The notes under the pieces are model-generated. The model searched no databases and had not been told where the DNA came from. It saw nothing but the letters and a program-made list of their open reading frames with translations. Positions 736-22,253 of a stretch of DNA of 27,590 bases are shown piece after piece. Made by a program: the position numbers and the translations under genes. Source of the DNA: a virus; the IMG/VR virus record IMGVR_UViG_3300010354_000492, positions 1 to 27,590 of that record. One strand, given 5' to 3'. Numbering within the stretch: the first letter of the stretch is position 1; the number at the start of each line of letters is the position of its first letter.

Positions 736-768
736 CAAAAACCCATTTTTATGGGTTTTTGTTTTTTT
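736..768 (+). terminator. Rho-independent terminator after the winged-helix gene
   Basis: An 11-bp perfect stem (CAAAAACCCAT, 736-746, with ATGGGTTTTTG, 751-761) encloses a TTTT loop and is followed by seven T (762-768). It insulates the early gene from the giant gene at 796, whose own late box follows directly. Confidence 0.9.
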
Positions 769-770
769 AT

Positions 771-778
771 GCTAAATA
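771..778 (+). promoter_or_regulatory. Late-type promoter box GCTAAATA before the giant gene
   Basis: GCTAAATA lies just after the terminator and ends 17 bases before the ATG at 796. It shares the CTAAATA core of other candidate late promoters in the window. No sigma70-like pair was seen here, so the giant gene is probably transcribed late with the structural genes. Confidence 0.55.
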
Positions 779-795
779 GTCAGTGAGATCTATTC

Positions 796-3700
796 ATGAC
801 TAAACGCGCATGTTGTTGTGGTGGCGGTGTTCCTGAGCCACCTGGAGTAACAGGTTCATTCTGCTGCAATCCGATATTTTTTACGGATTTTATTACATTG
901 TATGGGGATGATATGGCAGATCATGCCGAGGTCAGTCCACAAGACTGGATTGGTTTAGTTGTTAAACGGCCACCAATAGCAAAAGCAGACTTTGTTAGAT
1001 CACATGAACCCCCAGATGGTTGTAATTGTTGCTGTGCAGATTGCACAACTGGACCAAACCAACAACCTTTAACTTCTAATCCGTCAGACTTTGAAGTAGA
1101 TCCTACTAATGATGGAAGATATAGAAGATCATTTAATAAGTTAAAAACATTTATAAATTCTTCTATTTCAAATAGGAAAAAACAAACAAAAAAATCAATA
1201 CAGATAACATCAAAGCAAAGTGGTGCAGCAGTTAAACCAGAAGATGAAAACTTACAATATATTGTTAAACTGGATAGAGCAATCCATGGAAAAGATATTG
1301 GTGCTGATCTTAATGGTGTAAATCATAACACAAATAATTTTGCAATGATTGAAGATGGTGATGGTGGTTTAGAAGTTGAAGGTCCAGACTATAGCGGTGG
1401 CTTAGGAAATTGGGATCCAGATAACCCACCACCAGAAGTACCGTGTTTTAAACATGTTGGTGCATGGCTAGCAGGAGATTATACTAGCCCTTTACATAAA
1501 AAATGTAATGCAATGTGTTGCAAAGCGGAAGAGTATTCTACCTCAGCAAGAGGAGCAAATGATGTATTTTTTGCGTACAAATATTCTGGATGCCATTTAA
1601 CATGGTATCCGAGAGAATTTTCTTTTGATAAAGATCCATATGTACCACAATGTACTGGTGTTTTAACATGGCAAGTAAAATGCATTGATCCACCAGCATG
1701 TAATAATATACAATACAGACCAGCGCAAAATTCTTGTTCTGGTTGGGCTTTGCAAAGATTTGGAATCGGGGCAGCTGGAAATTTTAATTATCAAGAAGAG
1801 TGTTCGTATACAACTTTTTGGGAAAGGATGACCGATTTACGGTTTCCATGTGCCTGTGCTCCGTTTCCGCACATACACGGAGGAATAAAAGATTCTCTTT
1901 ATAATAGAATAAACGTAAGACTATCTCCAGGCCAAATGGGTTATGTTTCTAAAATGTATCCTCTCAGTGAACCTATGACTGGCCGTGATGAAGCTGGTTG
2001 TTGCTGGGTATCCAATAGCCAACTGCCAGGAAACTGGTCTGATTATTCAAATAATAGAAGTGCGTGTTATAAAAGCACATATCCATATTTTGATGGAAGA
2101 GGAAAACGACCTGAAAATATTATATCCTGTGGTCCAGGATTTAGGGGACATTATATACAACCAGCTGGTGGAATTGGTGGCTCTGATGACTATATTGTAG
2201 GGAATCCAAACTATACCACATCATGCTATGAATGGGGAATATCTCCATATTTACAAAGAATTTCTACCAAATACAATAAAATGGGTTTAGAAATTTTTAA
2301 ACATGGTAGATTTGGTGGCCACTTACAAGATTATGGGACAGTATTTGAAGTATCAAGATACGAAAAATTAGAATTATTAAGAGATATTCAAATTTCATTT
2401 GGAAGAAAACCAGGTAAAAAAAGTAGTCTCAGACAACAGTTTGTAGGATTTATTCAACTGGAACACCATTTTGAGTGTTATGCTTTTAGATCTGAAGATG
2501 GGACTGCTGTTATAGAAATGAATGCAATACAGAACCACTGTAACATGTTGATACCAAAATCTGAACGTGGTTACGGTGGAAAGTATACACAAACTGCTGG
2601 TGGTTGTTATAGATGGACACCATGGCAATATGATTCTAATTTATGGCAAATAAAAAGATCTGTTCCCAGAAGAGTAATCTATGCTGGTTCAGGAATACCA
2701 CTATTTCAATTTGATCTTGTAAATATGGAACAGAAGTTGTTAACAAATCCAGAATTGGGGGCTGGATGTCCGAGTGCATTTACACCAGAAGACTTTTTAT
2801 CACACTATTACAGATATTATTATGGGATGATTTCGTGGAGTGGTAAAGAGTGTAAAGAATTTAATAGACCACCAGAACCCCTAGAATGGGATTATACACA
2901 TTTTATAGATTCTTATAATTATGTTTCTTGTTGGTTAGAAAAAATGATTGAATGTGGTATATTGAGAATAAAAGACCATTCTATTGATATAGCGGAAGAA
3001 ACAAATAATATTATTGCTGCTGGCACCATTTTTGTAAATCCTGAAACACAAGAAGAAGAAATATTAATACCAGAACAGGTTGCTATAGAATGTGGTGGTA
3101 TAGCTGGATATGAACAACTTGTACAATTTTGGGGAGCAAGTGTCGGTGCACCCGACGCAGTTACGCCAAAATTAGTAAAAGAAAAATTATTTAATCCAGC
3201 TGGTGTTAGCAGAGTTGATAGAGAAACTAATAATAATTTGTATTATTCTTCTACCAACGAAGGAACAATCAGATTATTCTTACCAAGAAGAGCTAGGTTG
3301 CCTCTGGGAAGCGCTAGAGCTGGAATTACAGCATGGGGCTGTGCATCCGGGTTTAGTGCAAACAACCAATATGAAAACTTTATATGCCCGTCATATGTTG
3401 GACCAAATAATCCAAATGGTTCAGAATATGGAAATTCTTTAAAAATACCAGAACAATTTTTTGTTCCTCATGAAGAAAACAGTCCCTACGCAGTATACAA
3501 CCTTTTGAGACACGAAAAGGTATATTCAAATTTTGCTGGCACATTTATACAAGATGCCAGCGGAAAACTGTCATTTTTCTTTGGAGGTGTTCCATATGGA
3601 GATAATAGTGATCCCGTTACATATGAATTGACTAGTGGCGATTTAAAATGTCCACCAGAAGGACAAGATCCATTTGATATTATTGTTGGTAAATTTGGTT

Positions 3701-6700
3701 TGTATCCAGGCGCAATACAATGTGTTCCATTATATCTTTCTACTAGTACACTTTTTGCTGTGTGCGAAGACGATACAACTGGAGAAAGTTATATTTGCCC
3801 AGCAAATCCAATTGATATTTGGGACGGTAGAGTTGTAGATTTATGTTTTACACATAAATTTGCAGTGGCCCTGTGTGATTTTGAAAGAAAAGCATTTTCT
3901 GTAGTCTGTGGTGTTGAGGGTGGTCAAATTATCAATCCAGCATTCGAAATGGGCGGAACACCCCCGATACCAATAGAATTAACTTTTCCTGGACCTGCTT
4001 TTACCATATATAATGCATTTAATTGCAATGGCCCAAATATGGCTGTTCCATTTTCACCGTGCGATTCTCCCACATGTTTAACTAACGAACCATTTAATTA
4101 TGCACCATGTGGCTCTGCAGGTGCTGTTGTTGGTGCAAGGACATTTTATCCTGAACCCCCATTTGAAGGATATAGGTTAAAATCTTGGGGAAAGTGGGCT
4201 GGCTTGTTGGGAACATTTTCTGTTTCATATGAAGATGCAGTAGCACATAGCAACGATAGTCATTCTTATGCATTTTATGGATTTAATTATCCCCGGGATT
4301 CACAGTTTAGAGGTTATGATCCTAATATTCATGGTGTGACTTTAGATAAAGATGGAAACACAAGACAAGCAAATTTGAGATATCCTGGAACAAATACTTG
4401 GAATATTTGGACAAAAATTGGCTGCGGTTTATACCATTTTGCCGCTCTGGATGATTATGGTGGTTTGTTTATTACGCCACAAAGTTCAAATTTAGAAGGT
4501 CAATCGGCACACGGGATACCATACGAGTATAACTCACTTTACAATTTTTTAGCTGATAGCGAAGATCTTCCAGGAGATGTTTTGTGGAAATATGATGGCT
4601 TTGGTCCATTTTTTAATTATTATAATCATATTCCGAGACCAGGTTTCATAAAAGAAGAGGAATGGACTCCACTTCGGTATAATATGATAACTTATTTTTC
4701 GTCAACTTATAGACAAAAACATTGCATTTGTGCTCCATACGCAGGTAGCTGGATAGACTTACCTCAATATTGTGAACCAAGCCCAGTAAATCCTGGCTCT
4801 GTTGGTGGTTCTGAGCCCGGTTGTAAAGATTGTCAAACATCATTTATTACAAAACCAGTTCCTAACCCAGATAATCCAAATACAAATATTTGTGGTATAT
4901 GTTTTGGTCAAGAAGTCAATGGTCTTTATTTACCGTGGAGAGATAGAACTTGTTTTTATATGGGTTCCTTGGTTCAAGGAAATGGGTTTGCAGGATCTAC
5001 AGCATTTTTCTTTGGTTTTAGTGAAACGCAACCACATTATAAAGATTTAGCATGTGGTGCTTTTAACACTATGTTATTAACTAATGAAAATAAAATTGAA
5101 ATATATGGAACCTATTTGCAAGTCGATGAAAATGGTGTTGTTGTTGGTCCGCGTGTAGATGAATATGATGATGATGGAAATATAGTAAACTCGACATTAA
5201 TACCAGTTGAACCTTGGGTACCAGAACAAGTTAAAGCACTAAAAGGTGTTTGGGAATGTGAATATGCTTGTCCAATGTATTGTGCTATGGACTCAAACGA
5301 TCCACCAAGATTTACCCAAGACTTGCAAGGATATACTTTGCCACCTTGTTATAGTGGAATGACATTTTCACCACTAATCGGTGCCACATACAATCCACCA
5401 AATTTTGAAGATAGAATAAAAACAATAAAAAGTGCTGCTGATTATAGTTTATGTGTAACAAATGGAAATATTATCCATGTTTGGGGTGAAGCTAGCATGA
5501 TTCCTGGATACAATAAAGATACATATTATCCTGGAACCAAAGCATATGCAAAAATTGGAAAATTAGAATTGGGTGTACCAGAGGATAGTTCATATACAAT
5601 TACTGAAGTAACCACTGGGATACATGCATTTTACATTGCTTACAAAATTGTAATACCAAATAGTAGTTTTACTTATAATAAAATATATTCATTTACAAGA
5701 TACGGAAACGAAACAACAAAACTTGAAGCACCTGGGTCGCTTCAAGGTAAAGAAATAATTTCTATGTCTGCTGGAAATGGTTTTGCAGTTGCACTGTATG
5801 GTCAAGGAATAGAACCAAAAAAATGGGATGCAGAATCATTTGCTGTAGAAAATAGAATTGAGGGTTGGCAGTTAAATCACTTAGATTATCAATACAAAAA
5901 TTTTTCATCTATTCCAGAATATCATCAACGAGATGCTTTTTTTCATGCTATTCCTGGTCAGTGGGACGTATCTAAATTTTTATGGGGTGGAAATTGTTGT
6001 AATTCAATCATCAATCCAAGACACCCAACTCAAGAAGAAGATAGATGTGCAGCTCTAGCATATAATATTTACACCGATCCAGCAGTATTTGGGTATGATT
6101 ATACGGGGGTTTCTGATAGTTTAATTACATTTAAACCAACAAATGCAAACAATTGCAATTGTATTGGAACGACATTTGTAAACTTTAATATTGTAGAAGA
6201 TACTCGTGGATTTACTTCAGGTCAAATACTCAGTGCCGTCGCCAGAATGTCTCCTGCAGGAGGTCAAACATTAAGTATTTCTGGCTATGTTGTGGGCTAT
6301 ACTGGACACACATATGATAATTATAAAACACTTTCAATCTCTGTTGCTGGCGGACAGTTTATATTTTTTGATGATAATTACGGTTGGGATCCAGTTCAAA
6401 ATACTGCAGGTGGACAAGTTCGTGGTGAAAATGATGTGTGGGATATCAAACTAGATGATCAATTTAGATTTAATAAAAATCTTTCTTATAGTGGACATCC
6501 AGAACATCTGTGGATGCGATCTGATATAAGGAGATTGACAGAACAATCTTTAAATTTACTAAAAAATGTAACATCTGGTGCAGTTGATAATGTTGGACAG
6601 CTTGCGTGTACACCGGGTGGTGTAATTGATATTTCTGCGCAAGCTGTTGGTGGGTTAGCTGCTTTGTATGGTGGATGTTTAGCAGACCTTGGAAGTTGTT

Positions 6701-7881
6701 GGGGTGAAGCTAGACCAATGAAAGAAAGAGTTCTTTATCAACAGCAAATACCATTTCCAGATTGTATACCAGGGAGTGCATGCCAACCAGAGTTAAATAT
6801 AAAAAATAGAGGTACTGTTGTAGATGCTGAGGGAAGTGTTCTTTCTACTGGTGTGTATGCACCAAACCCAGAAGCATATCGTGCAGATAAAGATACTTTT
6901 CAAAAAGTATCACATCATTATGGGCCTACAAGAATTGGTAATGATTTGTGCACCAGACATAAATCAAAAGCATTATCTTATTTTAAATACTGTGAACGAC
7001 ACTATTATTTTGGTCACGACACTGAAAAAGATACATGGGAAATATATGAATCGCCAGATATATTAAGAAACATGGCTGTAAATGATATTACAGGCAATAC
7101 TTATGAACCTTTGCCAGGTTTAACTGGTGCAACTATTGCTGGCCCAACTGGTGGTTTTGGTCAAGGAAGTTGTGGGCCTATTAGTTTAAGTTCGTATCCC
7201 AAAGCTGGACCAAATTATCCTCGTCGTGATTGGGTTTATTGGCCATCCTTTTTCCTCTCGGATGCTTTTATTGCTAGATCCATTGCATGGAATGTTTGTG
7301 CAGGTGAAGATCCAGACTATCCATGCGATAGTCCTTGTCTTGCTGGTCAGTATGCAAGCAGTAAAGTCTATCAAATTTTAGCTAATGGTGGAATAGGAGC
7401 AATAGTCTGGGGGTCTCCATGTAATAGACCAGGAACAACATTTCTTGGGGAAACTGAAGACATTGGAAAAATGTGGAATAAGTACATTACTTATAATTCT
7501 ATGCATTATACAGCAACACCAGCAACAATTTTGTGGGGTGTAAAAAATGATATCAATGCAGTAATACCACCCGATGAAGATCCTAATTTTGAAAAGAAAG
7601 GATTTTTAAAAGTTTTAGTTGATGAACAATATACAGCTATGTTTGAACCTTATAGAGATACATCTAAGAGATGGCATCCACTTTGTTGGGAATCTGCCAG
7701 CGATTATGGTGATAGATATGGGACCCCAGGTAGTGTAAATTGTTTTGTAGGTATAGATAACGTATCTTGTATAGAATTGGATCCAAATAATGTTGTTCTA
7801 GATATAGAAAACGGAAATGCATTCTGTACACCAGCAAGTTGTTTATTGTACGAATGCTGCCCCCCGCCAAGTATAGGATAA
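796..7881 (+). CDS. Giant cysteine-rich protein (2361 aa) with RCC1-like motifs, function unknown
   Basis: A single uninterrupted frame encodes about 260 kDa. By hand count it has about 87 cysteines (roughly 3.7%), spread along the chain and clustered at the ends: CCC and CC within the first 25 residues, CNCCC near 75-80, ECC near the end. There is no signal peptide or clear membrane span. Six segments fit the RCC1 strand pattern (hydrophobic, G/S, aromatic/H, A-L, then G..WG or similar): residues about 1010-1026, 1204-1224 (CGLYHFAALDDYG), 1416-1438 (ACGAFNTMLLTNE), 1541-1564 (ending HVWG), 1604-1618 and 1652-1669 (AGNGFAVALYG). A partial beta-propeller is therefore plausible. The rest is rich in Tyr, Trp, Pro, Gly and Asn, like an extracellular or virion protein. 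Late-type promoter placement suggests a structural or host-contact part such as a fibre, but no fold outside the RCC1-like part is recognised. Confidence 0.9.
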   Translation: MTKRACCCGGGVPEPPGVTGSFCCNPIFFTDFITLYGDDMADHAEVSPQDWIGLVVKRPPIAKADFVRSHEPPDGCNCCCADCTTGPNQQPLTSNPSDFEVDPTNDGRYRRSFNKLKTFINSSISNRKKQTKKSIQITSKQSGAAVKPEDENLQYIVKLDRAIHGKDIGADLNGVNHNTNNFAMIEDGDGGLEVEGPDYSGGLGNWDPDNPPPEVPCFKHVGAWLAGDYTSPLHKKCNAMCCKAEEYSTSARGANDVFFAYKYSGCHLTWYPREFSFDKDPYVPQCTGVLTWQVKCIDPPACNNIQYRPAQNSCSGWALQRFGIGAAGNFNYQEECSYTTFWERMTDLRFPCACAPFPHIHGGIKDSLYNRINVRLSPGQMGYVSKMYPLSEPMTGRDEAGCCWVSNSQLPGNWSDYSNNRSACYKSTYPYFDGRGKRPENIISCGPGFRGHYIQPAGGIGGSDDYIVGNPNYTTSCYEWGISPYLQRISTKYNKMGLEIFKHGRFGGHLQDYGTVFEVSRYEKLELLRDIQISFGRKPGKKSSLRQQFVGFIQLEHHFECYAFRSEDGTAVIEMNAIQNHCNMLIPKSERGYGGKYTQTAGGCYRWTPWQYDSNLWQIKRSVPRRVIYAGSGIPLFQFDLVNMEQKLLTNPELGAGCPSAFTPEDFLSHYYRYYYGMISWSGKECKEFNRPPEPLEWDYTHFIDSYNYVSCWLEKMIECGILRIKDHSIDIAEETNNIIAAGTIFVNPETQEEEILIPEQVAIECGGIAGYEQLVQFWGASVGAPDAVTPKLVKEKLFNPAGVSRVDRETNNNLYYSSTNEGTIRLFLPRRARLPLGSARAGITAWGCASGFSANNQYENFICPSYVGPNNPNGSEYGNSLKIPEQFFVPHEENSPYAVYNLLRHEKVYSNFAGTFIQDASGKLSFFFGGVPYGDNSDPVTYELTSGDLKCPPEGQDPFDIIVGKFGLYPGAIQCVPLYLSTSTLFAVCEDDTTGESYICPANPIDIWDGRVVDLCFTHKFAVALCDFERKAFSVVCGVEGGQIINPAFEMGGTPPIPIELTFPGPAFTIYNAFNCNGPNMAVPFSPCDSPTCLTNEPFNYAPCGSAGAVVGARTFYPEPPFEGYRLKSWGKWAGLLGTFSVSYEDAVAHSNDSHSYAFYGFNYPRDSQFRGYDPNIHGVTLDKDGNTRQANLRYPGTNTWNIWTKIGCGLYHFAALDDYGGLFITPQSSNLEGQSAHGIPYEYNSLYNFLADSEDLPGDVLWKYDGFGPFFNYYNHIPRPGFIKEEEWTPLRYNMITYFSSTYRQKHCICAPYAGSWIDLPQYCEPSPVNPGSVGGSEPGCKDCQTSFITKPVPNPDNPNTNICGICFGQEVNGLYLPWRDRTCFYMGSLVQGNGFAGSTAFFFGFSETQPHYKDLACGAFNTMLLTNENKIEIYGTYLQVDENGVVVGPRVDEYDDDGNIVNSTLIPVEPWVPEQVKALKGVWECEYACPMYCAMDSNDPPRFTQDLQGYTLPPCYSGMTFSPLIGATYNPPNFEDRIKTIKSAADYSLCVTNGNIIHVWGEASMIPGYNKDTYYPGTKAYAKIGKLELGVPEDSSYTITEVTTGIHAFYIAYKIVIPNSSFTYNKIYSFTRYGNETTKLEAPGSLQGKEIISMSAGNGFAVALYGQGIEPKKWDAESFAVENRIEGWQLNHLDYQYKNFSSIPEYHQRDAFFHAIPGQWDVSKFLWGGNCCNSIINPRHPTQEEDRCAALAYNIYTDPAVFGYDYTGVSDSLITFKPTNANNCNCIGTTFVNFNIVEDTRGFTSGQILSAVARMSPAGGQTLSISGYVVGYTGHTYDNYKTLSISVAGGQFIFFDDNYGWDPVQNTAGGQVRGENDVWDIKLDDQFRFNKNLSYSGHPEHLWMRSDIRRLTEQSLNLLKNVTSGAVDNVGQLACTPGGVIDISAQAVGGLAALYGGCLADLGSCWGEARPMKERVLYQQQIPFPDCIPGSACQPELNIKNRGTVVDAEGSVLSTGVYAPNPEAYRADKDTFQKVSHHYGPTRIGNDLCTRHKSKALSYFKYCERHYYFGHDTEKDTWEIYESPDILRNMAVNDITGNTYEPLPGLTGATIAGPTGGFGQGSCGPISLSSYPKAGPNYPRRDWVYWPSFFLSDAFIARSIAWNVCAGEDPDYPCDSPCLAGQYASSKVYQILANGGIGAIVWGSPCNRPGTTFLGETEDIGKMWNKYITYNSMHYTATPATILWGVKNDINAVIPPDEDPNFEKKGFLKVLVDEQYTAMFEPYRDTSKRWHPLCWESASDYGDRYGTPGSVNCFVGIDNVSCIELDPNNVVLDIENGNAFCTPASCLLYECCPPPSIG

Positions 7882-7897: not shown

Positions 7898-8569
7898 ATG
7901 AATAATTTAAATATGACACAACCCACTTATACTTTTAATAGTTCTGGAGGTTTTGATGGAAAAAATAATTTTAAAGTTTTTTTAGATTCACAAGGAAATT
8001 TAAAAGACACACGAAATAGACCATTTGGTATGTATAATATACCAATTGATATTCAAACTTTAATATATTTTAATATTTTTTATATTGGTTTGGGTGATAT
8101 TATTGATTTTTTTACAAAAAAACTTTATATTAAAAATTTAATAATGTTTATAACAAAAGGTAAATGCGGATGTGAAGAAAGAAGAAAACTATTTAATAAA
8201 TTTTTAAAAATTCCATATTTTATAAAAATACAAAAAAGAAGATTATATTTTGAAGATCATGAAATAATAGAACAGCTAAAGACAGCAAGAAAAAATAAAA
8301 TATCACTTATTAAAAAAACAACCTTTTTAGAAAAAGATTTAGAAGATTTTAATAAAGTTAAAAATGAATATGATAATTATTTTAAAGAATCTAAATTAGA
8401 CTTTTTTCAATCTGTAAACAATTATAAAAAACAATTTAAAAAAAATAATATGACTAACGAAGAAAATAAAAAAACAACACACCAACCAGTCAAACATCCA
8501 AATGAAAATAAACCAAAACCAGTAAATTATAAAGAAATAAAAGGTGGATGTGGTTGCAATAAAAAATAA
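7898..8569 (+). CDS. Hypothetical Lys-rich protein with two Cys-Gly-Cys motifs
   Basis: The 223-residue protein is not recognised. Residues 1-40 are polar (FNSSGGFDGKNNFKVFLD). A hydrophobic stretch near 50-70 (LIYFNIFYIGLGDIIDFF) could be an amphipathic or membrane-contacting helix. KCGCEERRKLFN near 88-99 resembles the C-x-C-x2-R-R motif of several small phage proteins. The middle is Lys-rich and probably coiled coil, a Pro/Lys/Asn linker follows, and the C-terminus is GGCGCNKK. It follows the giant gene by 16 bases with a good AAAGG site seven bases before the ATG. The shared Cys clusters suggest that the two products might act together, for example by metal binding or cross-linking; this is inference only. 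Base composition is extremely AT-rich, even for this window. Confidence 0.8.
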   Translation: MNNLNMTQPTYTFNSSGGFDGKNNFKVFLDSQGNLKDTRNRPFGMYNIPIDIQTLIYFNIFYIGLGDIIDFFTKKLYIKNLIMFITKGKCGCEERRKLFNKFLKIPYFIKIQKRRLYFEDHEIIEQLKTARKNKISLIKKTTFLEKDLEDFNKVKNEYDNYFKESKLDFFQSVNNYKKQFKKNNMTNEENKKTTHQPVKHPNENKPKPVNYKEIKGGCGCNKK

Positions 8570-11553: not shown

Positions 11554-11581
11554 TTGAATTGCTAGTATTGTGGAGTATAAT
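11554..11581 (+). promoter_or_regulatory. Sigma70-type promoter TTGAAT-N16-TATAAT for gp33
   Basis: TTGAAT (11554-11559), 16 bases, and a perfect TATAAT (11576-11581). The predicted start, near 11588, falls at the ATG of gp33 (11589), so this transcript would be leaderless. GGAG (11572-11575) could serve only longer transcripts from upstream. Confidence 0.65.
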
Positions 11582-11588
11582 AAAACCG

Positions 11589-11822
11589 ATGTATATTAAT
11601 GATGCTGCCAAAGAAAGGTTTTCAAACCAGGTAATAGATAGGGCAAAACGAACAAAACTGCCCTTTATGGACTGTGTTTTAGAATTGGCAGAAGATATGA
11701 ATCTTGAACCGGGAACTGCTGGAAAACTTTTAACAAAACCTTTAATAGAAAAAATTCAAGTAGAAGCCCAAAATTTACATCTATTAAAAAAATCTAAAAC
11801 AAAACGTTTGCCACTTGATTGA
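11589..11822 (+). CDS. 33: Late-promoter transcription accessory protein, gp33-like
   Basis: This 77-residue protein is T4 gp33-like. In T4, gp33 bridges the host RNA polymerase and the sliding clamp gp45, and with sigma gp55 activates late promoters. The short form of marine T4-like phages is recognisable: an amphipathic core (KLPFMDCVLELAEDMNLEPG near residues 23-42), then KLLTKPLIEKIQVEAQNLHLL near 46-66, and a C-terminal LPLD that could be the clamp-binding tail. T4 gp33 is longer at 112 residues. The ATG at 11589 is preferred over a TTG at 11559 because the homology begins there. It lies directly upstream of gp32; T4 also keeps gene 33 close to gene 32. It is controlled by a sigma70-type promoter, as expected for a pre-late activator of the late-type boxes in this window. 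Confidence 0.85.
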   Translation: MYINDAAKERFSNQVIDRAKRTKLPFMDCVLELAEDMNLEPGTAGKLLTKPLIEKIQVEAQNLHLLKKSKTKRLPLD

Positions 11823-11835
11823 TTGGTTGTATAAT
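11808..11835 (+). promoter_or_regulatory. Sigma70-type promoter TTGCCA-N16-TATAAT for gp32
   Basis: TTGCCA (11808-11813), within the last codons of gp33, 16 bases, then a perfect TATAAT (11830-11835). The start would be near 11841-11842, giving a leader of about 35 bases with the hairpin at 11851-11867. It allows high gp32 expression independent of gp33. Confidence 0.72.
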
Positions 11836-11850
11836 TAAACTATAGAAAGG

Positions 11851-11867
11851 CCAAGGTAGATCCTTGG
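11851..11867 (+). promoter_or_regulatory. Leader hairpin over the gp32 ribosome-binding region
   Basis: CCAAGG (11851-11856), loop TAGAT, CCTTGG (11862-11867): a six-base-pair stem ending eight bases before the ATG at 11876. It sequesters AAGG and lies next to AAAGG (11846-11850). T4 gp32 represses its own translation through a structured leader, so an autoregulatory role here is plausible but inferred. Confidence 0.5.
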
Positions 11868-11875
11868 GAATAACA

Positions 11876-12730
11876 ATGCCAAATTTTTCAGATTTTAAAA
11901 AGAAGAGTAAGAATTCTGTCGCAGCACTAACGGAGCGTCTTGATAAGCTCACATCAAAGGAGGGCTATAAAGATGAACGCATGTGGAAACCGGGTATCGA
12001 TAAGGCTGGAAACGGATATGCGGTAATTCGTTTTCTTCCTGAAATTGATGGTGAGGATAGCCCCTTTGTTTCAGTTTATAGCCATACATTCAAAGGGAAG
12101 GGTGGCTGGCTATATGAAAATTGTCCTACGACAATTGGTGAAAAGTGCCCAGTCTGTGCAGCAAATACCGAACTATGGAATAGTGGTATTGAAGATGACA
12201 AAAACATTGCTCGTCAGAGAAAGCGCAAGCTTACCTATATTTCTAACATTTTAGTTTTGGAAGATCCAGCCAATCCAGAAAACAAGGGAAAGGTTTTCCT
12301 CTATCAGTATGGAACTAAGATCTTTCAAAAGATTCAAAGTCTTGCTCATCCAGAGTTTCAAGATGAGGTTGCTGTAGATCCATTTAACTTTTGGACTGGT
12401 GCGGACTTTAAGATCAAGATTCGCAATGTTGGTGGTTATGTAAACTACGACCGTAGCGAATTTGCTTCCCCTGCTCCTCTTTTTGGTGGAGAAGATAAAA
12501 AGCTGGAAGAGCTTTGGAAGAAACAGTATCCACTAAAGCCATTTATTGATAAGTCTCAATTTAAGAGCTTTGATGAGCTAAATGAGAGATTTAAGAAGGC
12601 CGTTGGTGATGACATCAGATCTCAATTTACAGATGCAAAGAGCATCGAAGATGATGTGGAAGAGACTGTTGTTGAAAATGTGGAGGAAAAAGATCCTCTG
12701 CAATACTTCTCCGAAATGGAGAATGATTGA
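11876..12730 (+). CDS. 32: Single-stranded DNA-binding protein gp32
   Basis: The 284-residue protein is the gp32-family ssDNA-binding protein that coats replication and recombination intermediates. The zinc site is visible: His70-x12-Cys83-x7-Cys91-x2-Cys94, against T4 His64-x12-Cys77-x9-Cys87-x2-Cys90. The basic N-terminus (KKKSKNSVAALTERLDKL) fits the cooperativity domain. The OB-fold core includes FLPEIDGEDSPFVSVYSH. The C-terminus is strongly acidic (DDVEETVVENVEEKD), the usual partner-binding tail. The ATG at 11876 is chosen over a TTG at 11864, which lies inside the leader hairpin. Codons are more GC-rich, with CGN arginine favoured, unlike the late genes, as for a highly expressed product. 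The gene has its own promoter and ends at a strong terminator. Confidence 0.95.
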   Translation: MPNFSDFKKKSKNSVAALTERLDKLTSKEGYKDERMWKPGIDKAGNGYAVIRFLPEIDGEDSPFVSVYSHTFKGKGGWLYENCPTTIGEKCPVCAANTELWNSGIEDDKNIARQRKRKLTYISNILVLEDPANPENKGKVFLYQYGTKIFQKIQSLAHPEFQDEVAVDPFNFWTGADFKIKIRNVGGYVNYDRSEFASPAPLFGGEDKKLEELWKKQYPLKPFIDKSQFKSFDELNERFKKAVGDDIRSQFTDAKSIEDDVEETVVENVEEKDPLQYFSEMEND

Positions 12731-21860: not shown

Positions 21861-22253
21861 ATGTTTAGTAAGATGGTGTCGTTTGCTATGGCTTTGGCAT
21901 CACGGGGATTTTCTGATAATAAAATTGATATTCCAACAAAACAACTTAGAGTTATATCTTGTTTTGGAATAGATAATATACCACCATGTGAGCATTTAAG
22001 ACAAAGTGCGTCTGATGGTAAACATTACTGTGGTGCATGCAAGTGCGGAGATAAAAAACATACATGGTTACTAAAAAGCTCTGAAGAGTACTCAAAATTA
22101 GATTATCCAAAGTTAAATTGCCCAATCTTTATGCCGGGATTTAATAATTATGACCCAAATTTAAAAAATACCAGAAAAGAACAAATTGAAAGTTTAGATC
22201 CTGAACAAATAAAGTATGTTCAGGTAACTGTTGGGAATGCACTACCAAAATAA
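21861..22253 (+). CDS. Six-cysteine protein, possible metal-binding, between wedge and neck genes
   Basis: The 130-residue protein has six cysteines at 34, 43, 57, 60, 62 and 87 (spacing C-x8-C-x13-C-x2-C-x-C-x24-C) plus nearby His45, His55 and His67. The segment HYCGACKCGDKKHTWL and the later KLDYPKLNCPIFMPGFNNY look strongly conserved in type. I recall similar small proteins in marine T4-like phages, without a known function. A zinc or iron-sulfur site is plausible. The start has a basic amphipathic helix (VSFAMALASRGF). The gene begins one base after the previous stop and is followed by a late promoter for gp13, so it is the last gene of the baseplate operon. Confidence 0.82.
   Translation: MFSKMVSFAMALASRGFSDNKIDIPTKQLRVISCFGIDNIPPCEHLRQSASDGKHYCGACKCGDKKHTWLLKSSEEYSKLDYPKLNCPIFMPGFNNYDPNLKNTRKEQIESLDPEQIKYVQVTVGNALPK

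Follow-up and report, generated by a model that had tools for sequence, protein, structure and literature searches.

What is the role of a 2361-residue, cysteine-packed protein encoded upstream of the gp33 and gp32 genes of a T4-like phage, and how is this site used in related phages? The window, by which we mean the whole stretch of DNA that was analysed, is the 27,590-nt (27.6-kb) IMG/VR virus record IMGVR_UViG_3300010354_000492. Its T4-like gene set comprises gp32, the late-promoter regulator, tail tube, baseplate hub and wedge, head closure and sheath stabiliser proteins and both terminase subunits, and by this gene content the source is an uncultured T4-like phage. The window gp32 and large terminase are less than 60% identical to those of the phages searched, the best matches being Synechococcus and Prochlorococcus myoviruses, in collections that exclude records very near the window's own record. 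Searches for psbA and ribosomal protein S21 in eight long contigs gave no match, so that neither a cyanophage nor a pelagimyophage is indicated, and a host search of genome contigs with the window gp32 found no relative.

An intact giant gene with conserved cysteines

The giant gene, the signals in front of it and its conserved neighbours are arranged as follows (class A is the propeller class defined below):

737..768, plus strand: hairpin with T-run resembling a terminator, AAAAACCCAT-TTTT-ATGGGTTTTT, separating the giant gene from the gene before it, read from the sequence
772-778, plus strand: CTAAATA, a box of late-promoter type located 24 nt upstream of the start codon
783..788, plus strand: GTGAGA, ribosome-binding-like, recurring in class A relatives
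796..7881, plus strand: giant Cys-rich protein, class A of the N-CCC family, 2361 aa, 87 Cys
796..819, plus strand: N-terminal tag MTKRACCC (family form M-[PTSA]-K-K-x-C-C-C), common to all classes
796..1050, plus strand: N-terminal Cys-cluster module, residues 1-85 (CCC ... FCCNP ... CNCCCADC), the best-conserved part of class A
7898..8569, plus strand: companion gene encoding 223 aa that include CGC and, at the C-terminus, GGCGCNKK; its relatives follow class A genes
11559-11822, plus strand: late-promoter regulator of the gp33 type (T4 late-promoter regulator family), a conserved anchor gene
11864-12730, plus strand: gp32, a conserved anchor gene (the gp33 and gp32 block spans 11559..12730)

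The preliminary description had recognised one intact giant gene with an unusual content of about 87 cysteines (by hand count) behind a late-type box, and these observations held. The reading frame at 796-7881 (+) begins with ATG and encodes 2361 residues with no internal stops; the cysteines number exactly 87, or 3.7% of residues, as against 0-2.2% in the other listed genes of the window, except for one 130-aa gene at 4.6%; and the CTAAATA box at 772-778 is real and is conserved in relatives. Hairpin-like stretches similar to that at 737..768 were also found before many relatives.

In a comparison of seven full-length homologues (34-58% identity), cysteine was the most conserved residue type, with a mean of 0.65 relative to 0.51 for tryptophan and 0.45 for glycine, and 41 of the 87 cysteines were invariant. 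This conservation indicates that the cysteine richness is no accident of composition, and the Cys-rich composition looks to be under selection. No ORF of at least 600 residues elsewhere in the family loci reaches 2.7% Cys. Purifying selection on the giant gene was apparent in its overlap with the related contig L001 (rough dN/dS of 0.15, by simple counts). The CxxCH motif is absent from the family proteins, and a listing of cysteines unshared between sister sequences, in which paired gain or loss was sought, revealed no informative pattern.

A gene family at the gp32 locus

About 40 distinct family genes were obtained from 2.9 million viral contigs, by one scan anchored on gp32 and another for the coding pattern M-x-K-K-x-C-C-C. 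With the exception of strays and contigs that are too short, these genes share one site upstream of gp33/gp32 with the same neighbour genes, and one family gene is present in each of the loci (20 of 20) whose sequence extends 9 kb or more upstream of gp32. Four contigs (L065, L070, L071 and L074) have the CCC gene on the strand opposite to gp32 and about 10 kb away from it, indicating that the locus was rearranged in that lineage. The family proteins range from 288 to 2490 residues, contain roughly 3-6% Cys and nearly always start with M-x-K-K-x-CCC, a motif that is single-copy in seven of the eight long contigs; the remaining one, the contig of L087, has MSKNNCCC. A late box (TATAAATA, CTAAATA or ATAAATA) is present no more than 70 nt upstream of the start in 37 of 42 family genes, compared with 2.5% of random stretches, TATAAATA being the T4 late consensus. 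Across the family, the Cys triplet is encoded by varying synonymous codons, which favours selection on the protein and speaks against the tag being a mere recombination hinge. One further gene with an MTKKKCCC start (L128:12584-13642; 353 aa, 9.6% Cys) is located in a contig without the gp32 neighbourhood.

A seven-bladed propeller in the window protein

A propeller or BLIP-II-like domain had been surmised in the preliminary description from at least six RCC1-like segments between residues of about 1010 and 1670. The RCC1 pattern and the domain stood up to analysis with homologue and PDB profiles and a predicted fold; the count and the starting point had to be revised, as there are seven repeats, between residues 911 and 1678:

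3478..5895, plus strand: predicted seven-bladed RCC1/BLIP-II-type propeller with long inserts, residues 895-1700 (profile and predicted fold)
3526..3594, plus strand: RCC1-like repeat 1, residues 911-933 (sequence and homologue alignments, as for all repeats but the third)
3832..3912, plus strand: RCC1-like repeat 2, residues 1013-1039
4408..4479, plus strand: RCC1-like repeat 3, residues 1205-1228 (Pfam RCC1_2 at 1206-1222; alignments)
5038..5109, plus strand: RCC1-like repeat 4, residues 1415-1438
5416..5487, plus strand: RCC1-like repeat 5, residues 1541-1564
5599..5706, plus strand: RCC1-like repeat 6, residues 1602-1637
5758..5829, plus strand: RCC1-like repeat 7, residues 1655-1678

For the window protein alone, the Pfam match to RCC1_2 (PF13540; E=0.0012) is below the curated cut-off. 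Among class A relatives, matches reach 1.7e-12 for RCC1_2 and 3.2e-10 for PF25390 (RCC1-like domain), each in 8 of 28 members. A profile of residues 895-1700 matched mostly RCC1 chains in the PDB (HERC2, RCC1, UVR8, SRM1 and RPGR). An AlphaFold2 model of the region, built from ten sequences only, had a pTM of 0.68, with pLDDT values of 70-95 for most blade stretches and below 40 in the long inserts. The top Foldseek matches of this model were RCC1 propellers, and VIA-align placed BLIP-II first (Z 18.9, 2.5 A, 241 residues), followed by plant receptor-kinase propellers, HERC, RPGR, UVR8 and RCC1, with Z values of 14-16 for RCC1, HERC and UVR8. In BFVD, the closest viral folds belonged to RCC1 proteins from phages and giant viruses, and their TM-scores were low. 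The assignment of residues 895-1700 as a seven-bladed RCC1/BLIP-II-type propeller is well supported by these profiles and the predicted fold, and a chance occurrence of the RCC1 pattern is ruled out by the homologue profiles, the PDB profile and the fold. Residues 1-890 were predicted with a mean pLDDT of 43.6 and gave no useful fold match, and profiles of residues 1-890 and 1700-2361 found no match in the PDB.

Unrelated bodies behind a constant N-terminus

BLAST clustering separated the family into the following classes:

Class A: the propeller class (the window, L082-L088, L108, L095, L097 and L022)
Class B: the WCDxDHW class
Class C: the glycine-rich class
Classes D and E: small proteins

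When classes A, B, C and D/E were compared with hhalign (nominal values from pairwise runs), the shared part was limited to the first 9-24 residues. The same profile-profile comparisons showed that D and E share 80 residues and that L096 and L106 belong to class A but lack most of the propeller. The bodies of at least four classes are unrelated by sequence beyond the tag, yet all are Cys-rich, and the propeller is one of several such bodies behind the same N-terminal Cys-triplet tag. Class C bodies contain an ALK/LTK-type glycine-rich domain (PF12810, down to 3.3e-10; 6.5e-6 in L109), which Pfam does not find in the window protein, and class B members show weak matches to collagen-like and tail-fibre PHROGs.

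That bodies are exchanged at the locus is evident from contigs L020 (class B) and L026 (class C), which are 93.6% identical over 9 kb from just behind the gene and dissimilar in the gene itself; L041 (class C) and L042 (class D) behave in the same way. When the class label is mapped on a gp32 tree, 12 changes are required against a minimum of 4, although support is good for only a few branches of this tree. Cassette exchange is a pattern known for host-contact genes, and a conserved N-terminal anchor with a variable body, a trait of receptor-binding and tail-fibre proteins, is present in this family. The N-terminal Cys-cluster appears to be a module of its own, because an 80-residue version of it forms a separate ORF before the giant body in L082 (4758-5006 and 5010-11300) and likewise in L095 (12395-12643 and 6854-12391) and L119. 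In both lineages, taking the split genes of L082 and L095 as assembled, the module ends in a TAA stop at the same place and the ATG of the giant body follows 3-6 nt on.

Nearly every family gene with enough sequence is followed directly by a small companion gene, which belongs to one of two families: a Cys-rich type with CxxC patterns accompanies classes B and C, and the type found at 7898 in the window (CGC...GGCGCNKK) accompanies class A. The companions of classes D and E mostly cluster with the latter. Relative to L001, the window companion (7898-8569) has five non-synonymous changes and one synonymous change, a rough dN/dS of about 1 by the same simple counts and from few changes, and hence no more than a hint; its neighbours have values of 0-0.15. 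A small winged-helix-like gene at 476-712 of the window (PF14090, E=2.5e-4) is of a type that lies directly before the giant gene in class A and, in most other classes, behind the gene and its companion. Farther left, at about 1-382, a reverse-strand gene is cut by the window's edge; its relatives (L026 6415-7011 and L066 6347-6946) encode proteins of about 198 aa that contain HEYCHF, which resembles the metallopeptidase motif of the HExxH type.

Relation to known systems

No counterpart of the giant protein was found in INPHARED (50,697 phage records) at E<=0.01. In that collection, the class A N-terminus gave chance-level matches only, and there were none for the bodies of classes B and C or for either type of companion. 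The window protein matched no PHROG and, apart from RCC1, no Pfam family, so that neither homology to a known fibre family nor an ordinary fibre family over its whole length was seen. A literature search found no description of this gene family. To judge from the sequences compared here, the locus looks like a plug-in site, of a kind not described before, for surface proteins that are interchangeable and probably contact the host.

The window protein shares with the RCC1/BLIP-II group (PF13540, PF25390) seven repeats, the sequence profile and the fold; it differs in that long, low-confidence inserts separate the blades and the propeller resides within a 2361-residue Cys-rich chain, and only one class of the locus has a body of this type. 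Propellers of the RCC1 type occur in other phages, as in the PHROG families annotated as regulator of chromosome condensation, none of which the window protein matches, and in jumbo coliphage phAPEC6, which encodes eleven RCC1-like proteins (PMC7247149). Within the same clade, phage G001 encodes in its structural region a separate 1076-residue canonical RCC1-repeat protein (L151:6622-9849 = G001 46622-49852) that matches the PHROGs 'regulator of chromosome condensation' and 'tail protein'; a profile of the window propeller did not find it. The C-terminal part of this G001 protein contains GDSGSPFF, like trypsin-type proteases. A virion precedent is phiKZ gp131 (PMC4901313), which has a propeller of seven blades and sits at the periphery of the baseplate. 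The C-terminal propeller of gp131 (PDB 4gbf) has the same number of blades and appears farther down the VIA-align results (Z 11.1, 4.7 A over 283 residues), but it scores below the RCC1 group, and the window protein has no homologous record in INPHARED. For functional virion cysteines and Cys-tied fibres, the precedent is phage Milano (PMC10811340). In that phage, disulfides formed by Cys38, a residue close to the N-terminus, attach the short tail fibres to the baseplate, and the mean Cys content of the structural proteins is 2.1%, compared with 3-6% in the present family, for which we infer disulfides from the conserved cysteines. This conservation is consistent with intersubunit disulfides of the Milano type.

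Possible role of the giant protein

A structural or host-contact role of the window protein is plausible and would fit the body exchange at the locus. We propose that the gene is made late and that its product may be attached to the virion surface as a disulfide-stabilised, interchangeable host-contact protein, a reading to which we give an even chance. The constant M-x-K-K-x-Cys-Cys-Cys N-terminus, or in class A the 85-residue module, would dock the protein to a constant virion partner, probably via its cysteines, or alternatively would lock chains together, while the whole body would be swapped as a cassette at the locus. In the window phage, the variable body with its seven-bladed propeller and long inserted loops would meet the host; the many conserved cysteines would pair into disulfides after lysis, thereby rigidifying the protein, and the small companion gene may help in folding or attachment. 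Contact with the host is suggested because the constant N-terminus carries bodies that hhalign finds otherwise unrelated, and because class differs despite a nearly identical 9-kb flank and changes 12 times on the gp32 tree. The late boxes of 37 of 42 genes and the late regulator in the window point in the same direction, as do the domains present at the locus, which are of surface-protein types (RCC1 propeller, ALK/LTK glycine-rich domain, collagen-like repeat), the top conservation of cysteine with no CxxCH, the occupancy of 20 of 20 loci together with purifying selection in the L001 overlap, and the precedents of the Milano short tail fibres and phiKZ gp131. A broader reading, that the Cys-triplet N-terminus of about nine residues is a universal docking plug (disulfide or metal) for unrelated giants with a constant socket on the virion, is tentative and rather less than likely; if true, it would describe a modular display system that takes up unrelated giant proteins in exchange.

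The main argument against host contact is that at least one phage of the clade, G001, encodes ordinary tail fibres in a cluster of their own, in which collagen-like proteins reach 2470 residues; the fibre-like giants of this phage have 0-0.7% Cys. Given this cluster and the separate RCC1 protein in the structural region of G001, the giant-protein locus would be an accessory device. That thioredoxin had no match in the eight long contigs also counts against the host-contact and disulfide reading (an Erv1 search was silent in all control genomes and hence uninformative). The fibres encoded elsewhere in G001, and the evidence given above that points to a late surface protein held by a constant anchor, would also suit a head, neck or tail-surface protein that decorates the virion, protecting or spacing particles rather than recognising the host, with bodies that are replaceable since many stable disulfide-rich folds would serve. 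We regard this as unlikely, because repeated whole-body swaps among near-identical phages are more usual for host-contact genes and because the ALK/LTK-type glycine-rich domains recall adhesin tips.

The late box and the existence of separate fibre genes would also agree with a lysis-stage factor that acts outside the virion, e.g. as a decoy or an agent on neighbouring cells, and the MTKRACCC N-terminus, which has no obvious secretion signal, would imply release from the cell by lysis. Such a factor appears improbable, as a constant N-terminal tag on unrelated bodies calls for a constant docking partner and no enzyme or toxin domain was found in the window protein or the family with PHROG and Pfam. 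Clusters such as CNCCCADC, the excess in class A of adjacent cysteines (80 versus 26 in shuffled sequences) and of CxxC (59 versus 26), and the CxxC patterns of the class B/C companions might instead reflect an intracellular protein whose Cys clusters hold zinc or iron-sulfur for a cytoplasmic function. The cysteines are spread over the whole chain, however; in class C, CxxC is close to the shuffled value (42/38), and in class B it exceeds that value modestly (41/29), and size and late timing better suit a structural role, which makes metal binding of this kind quite improbable.

If the giant protein is indeed on the virion, the locus would represent a Cys-rich host-contact system without relative among the phage records searched, and its existence would raise the questions of which partner receives the CCC tag and how a Cys-packed protein from a reducing cytoplasm becomes a stable surface device. 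The locus provides a clear-cut example from nature in which entire bodies are exchanged while an N-terminus of fewer than 25 residues stays constant, which should be of use in reading host-range evolution in uncultured aquatic phages. The 130-aa gene at 21861-22253, between the baseplate wedge and neck genes of the window, encodes a protein with 6 Cys (4.6%) and no PHROG match, and a role as a Cys partner is conceivable for this protein.
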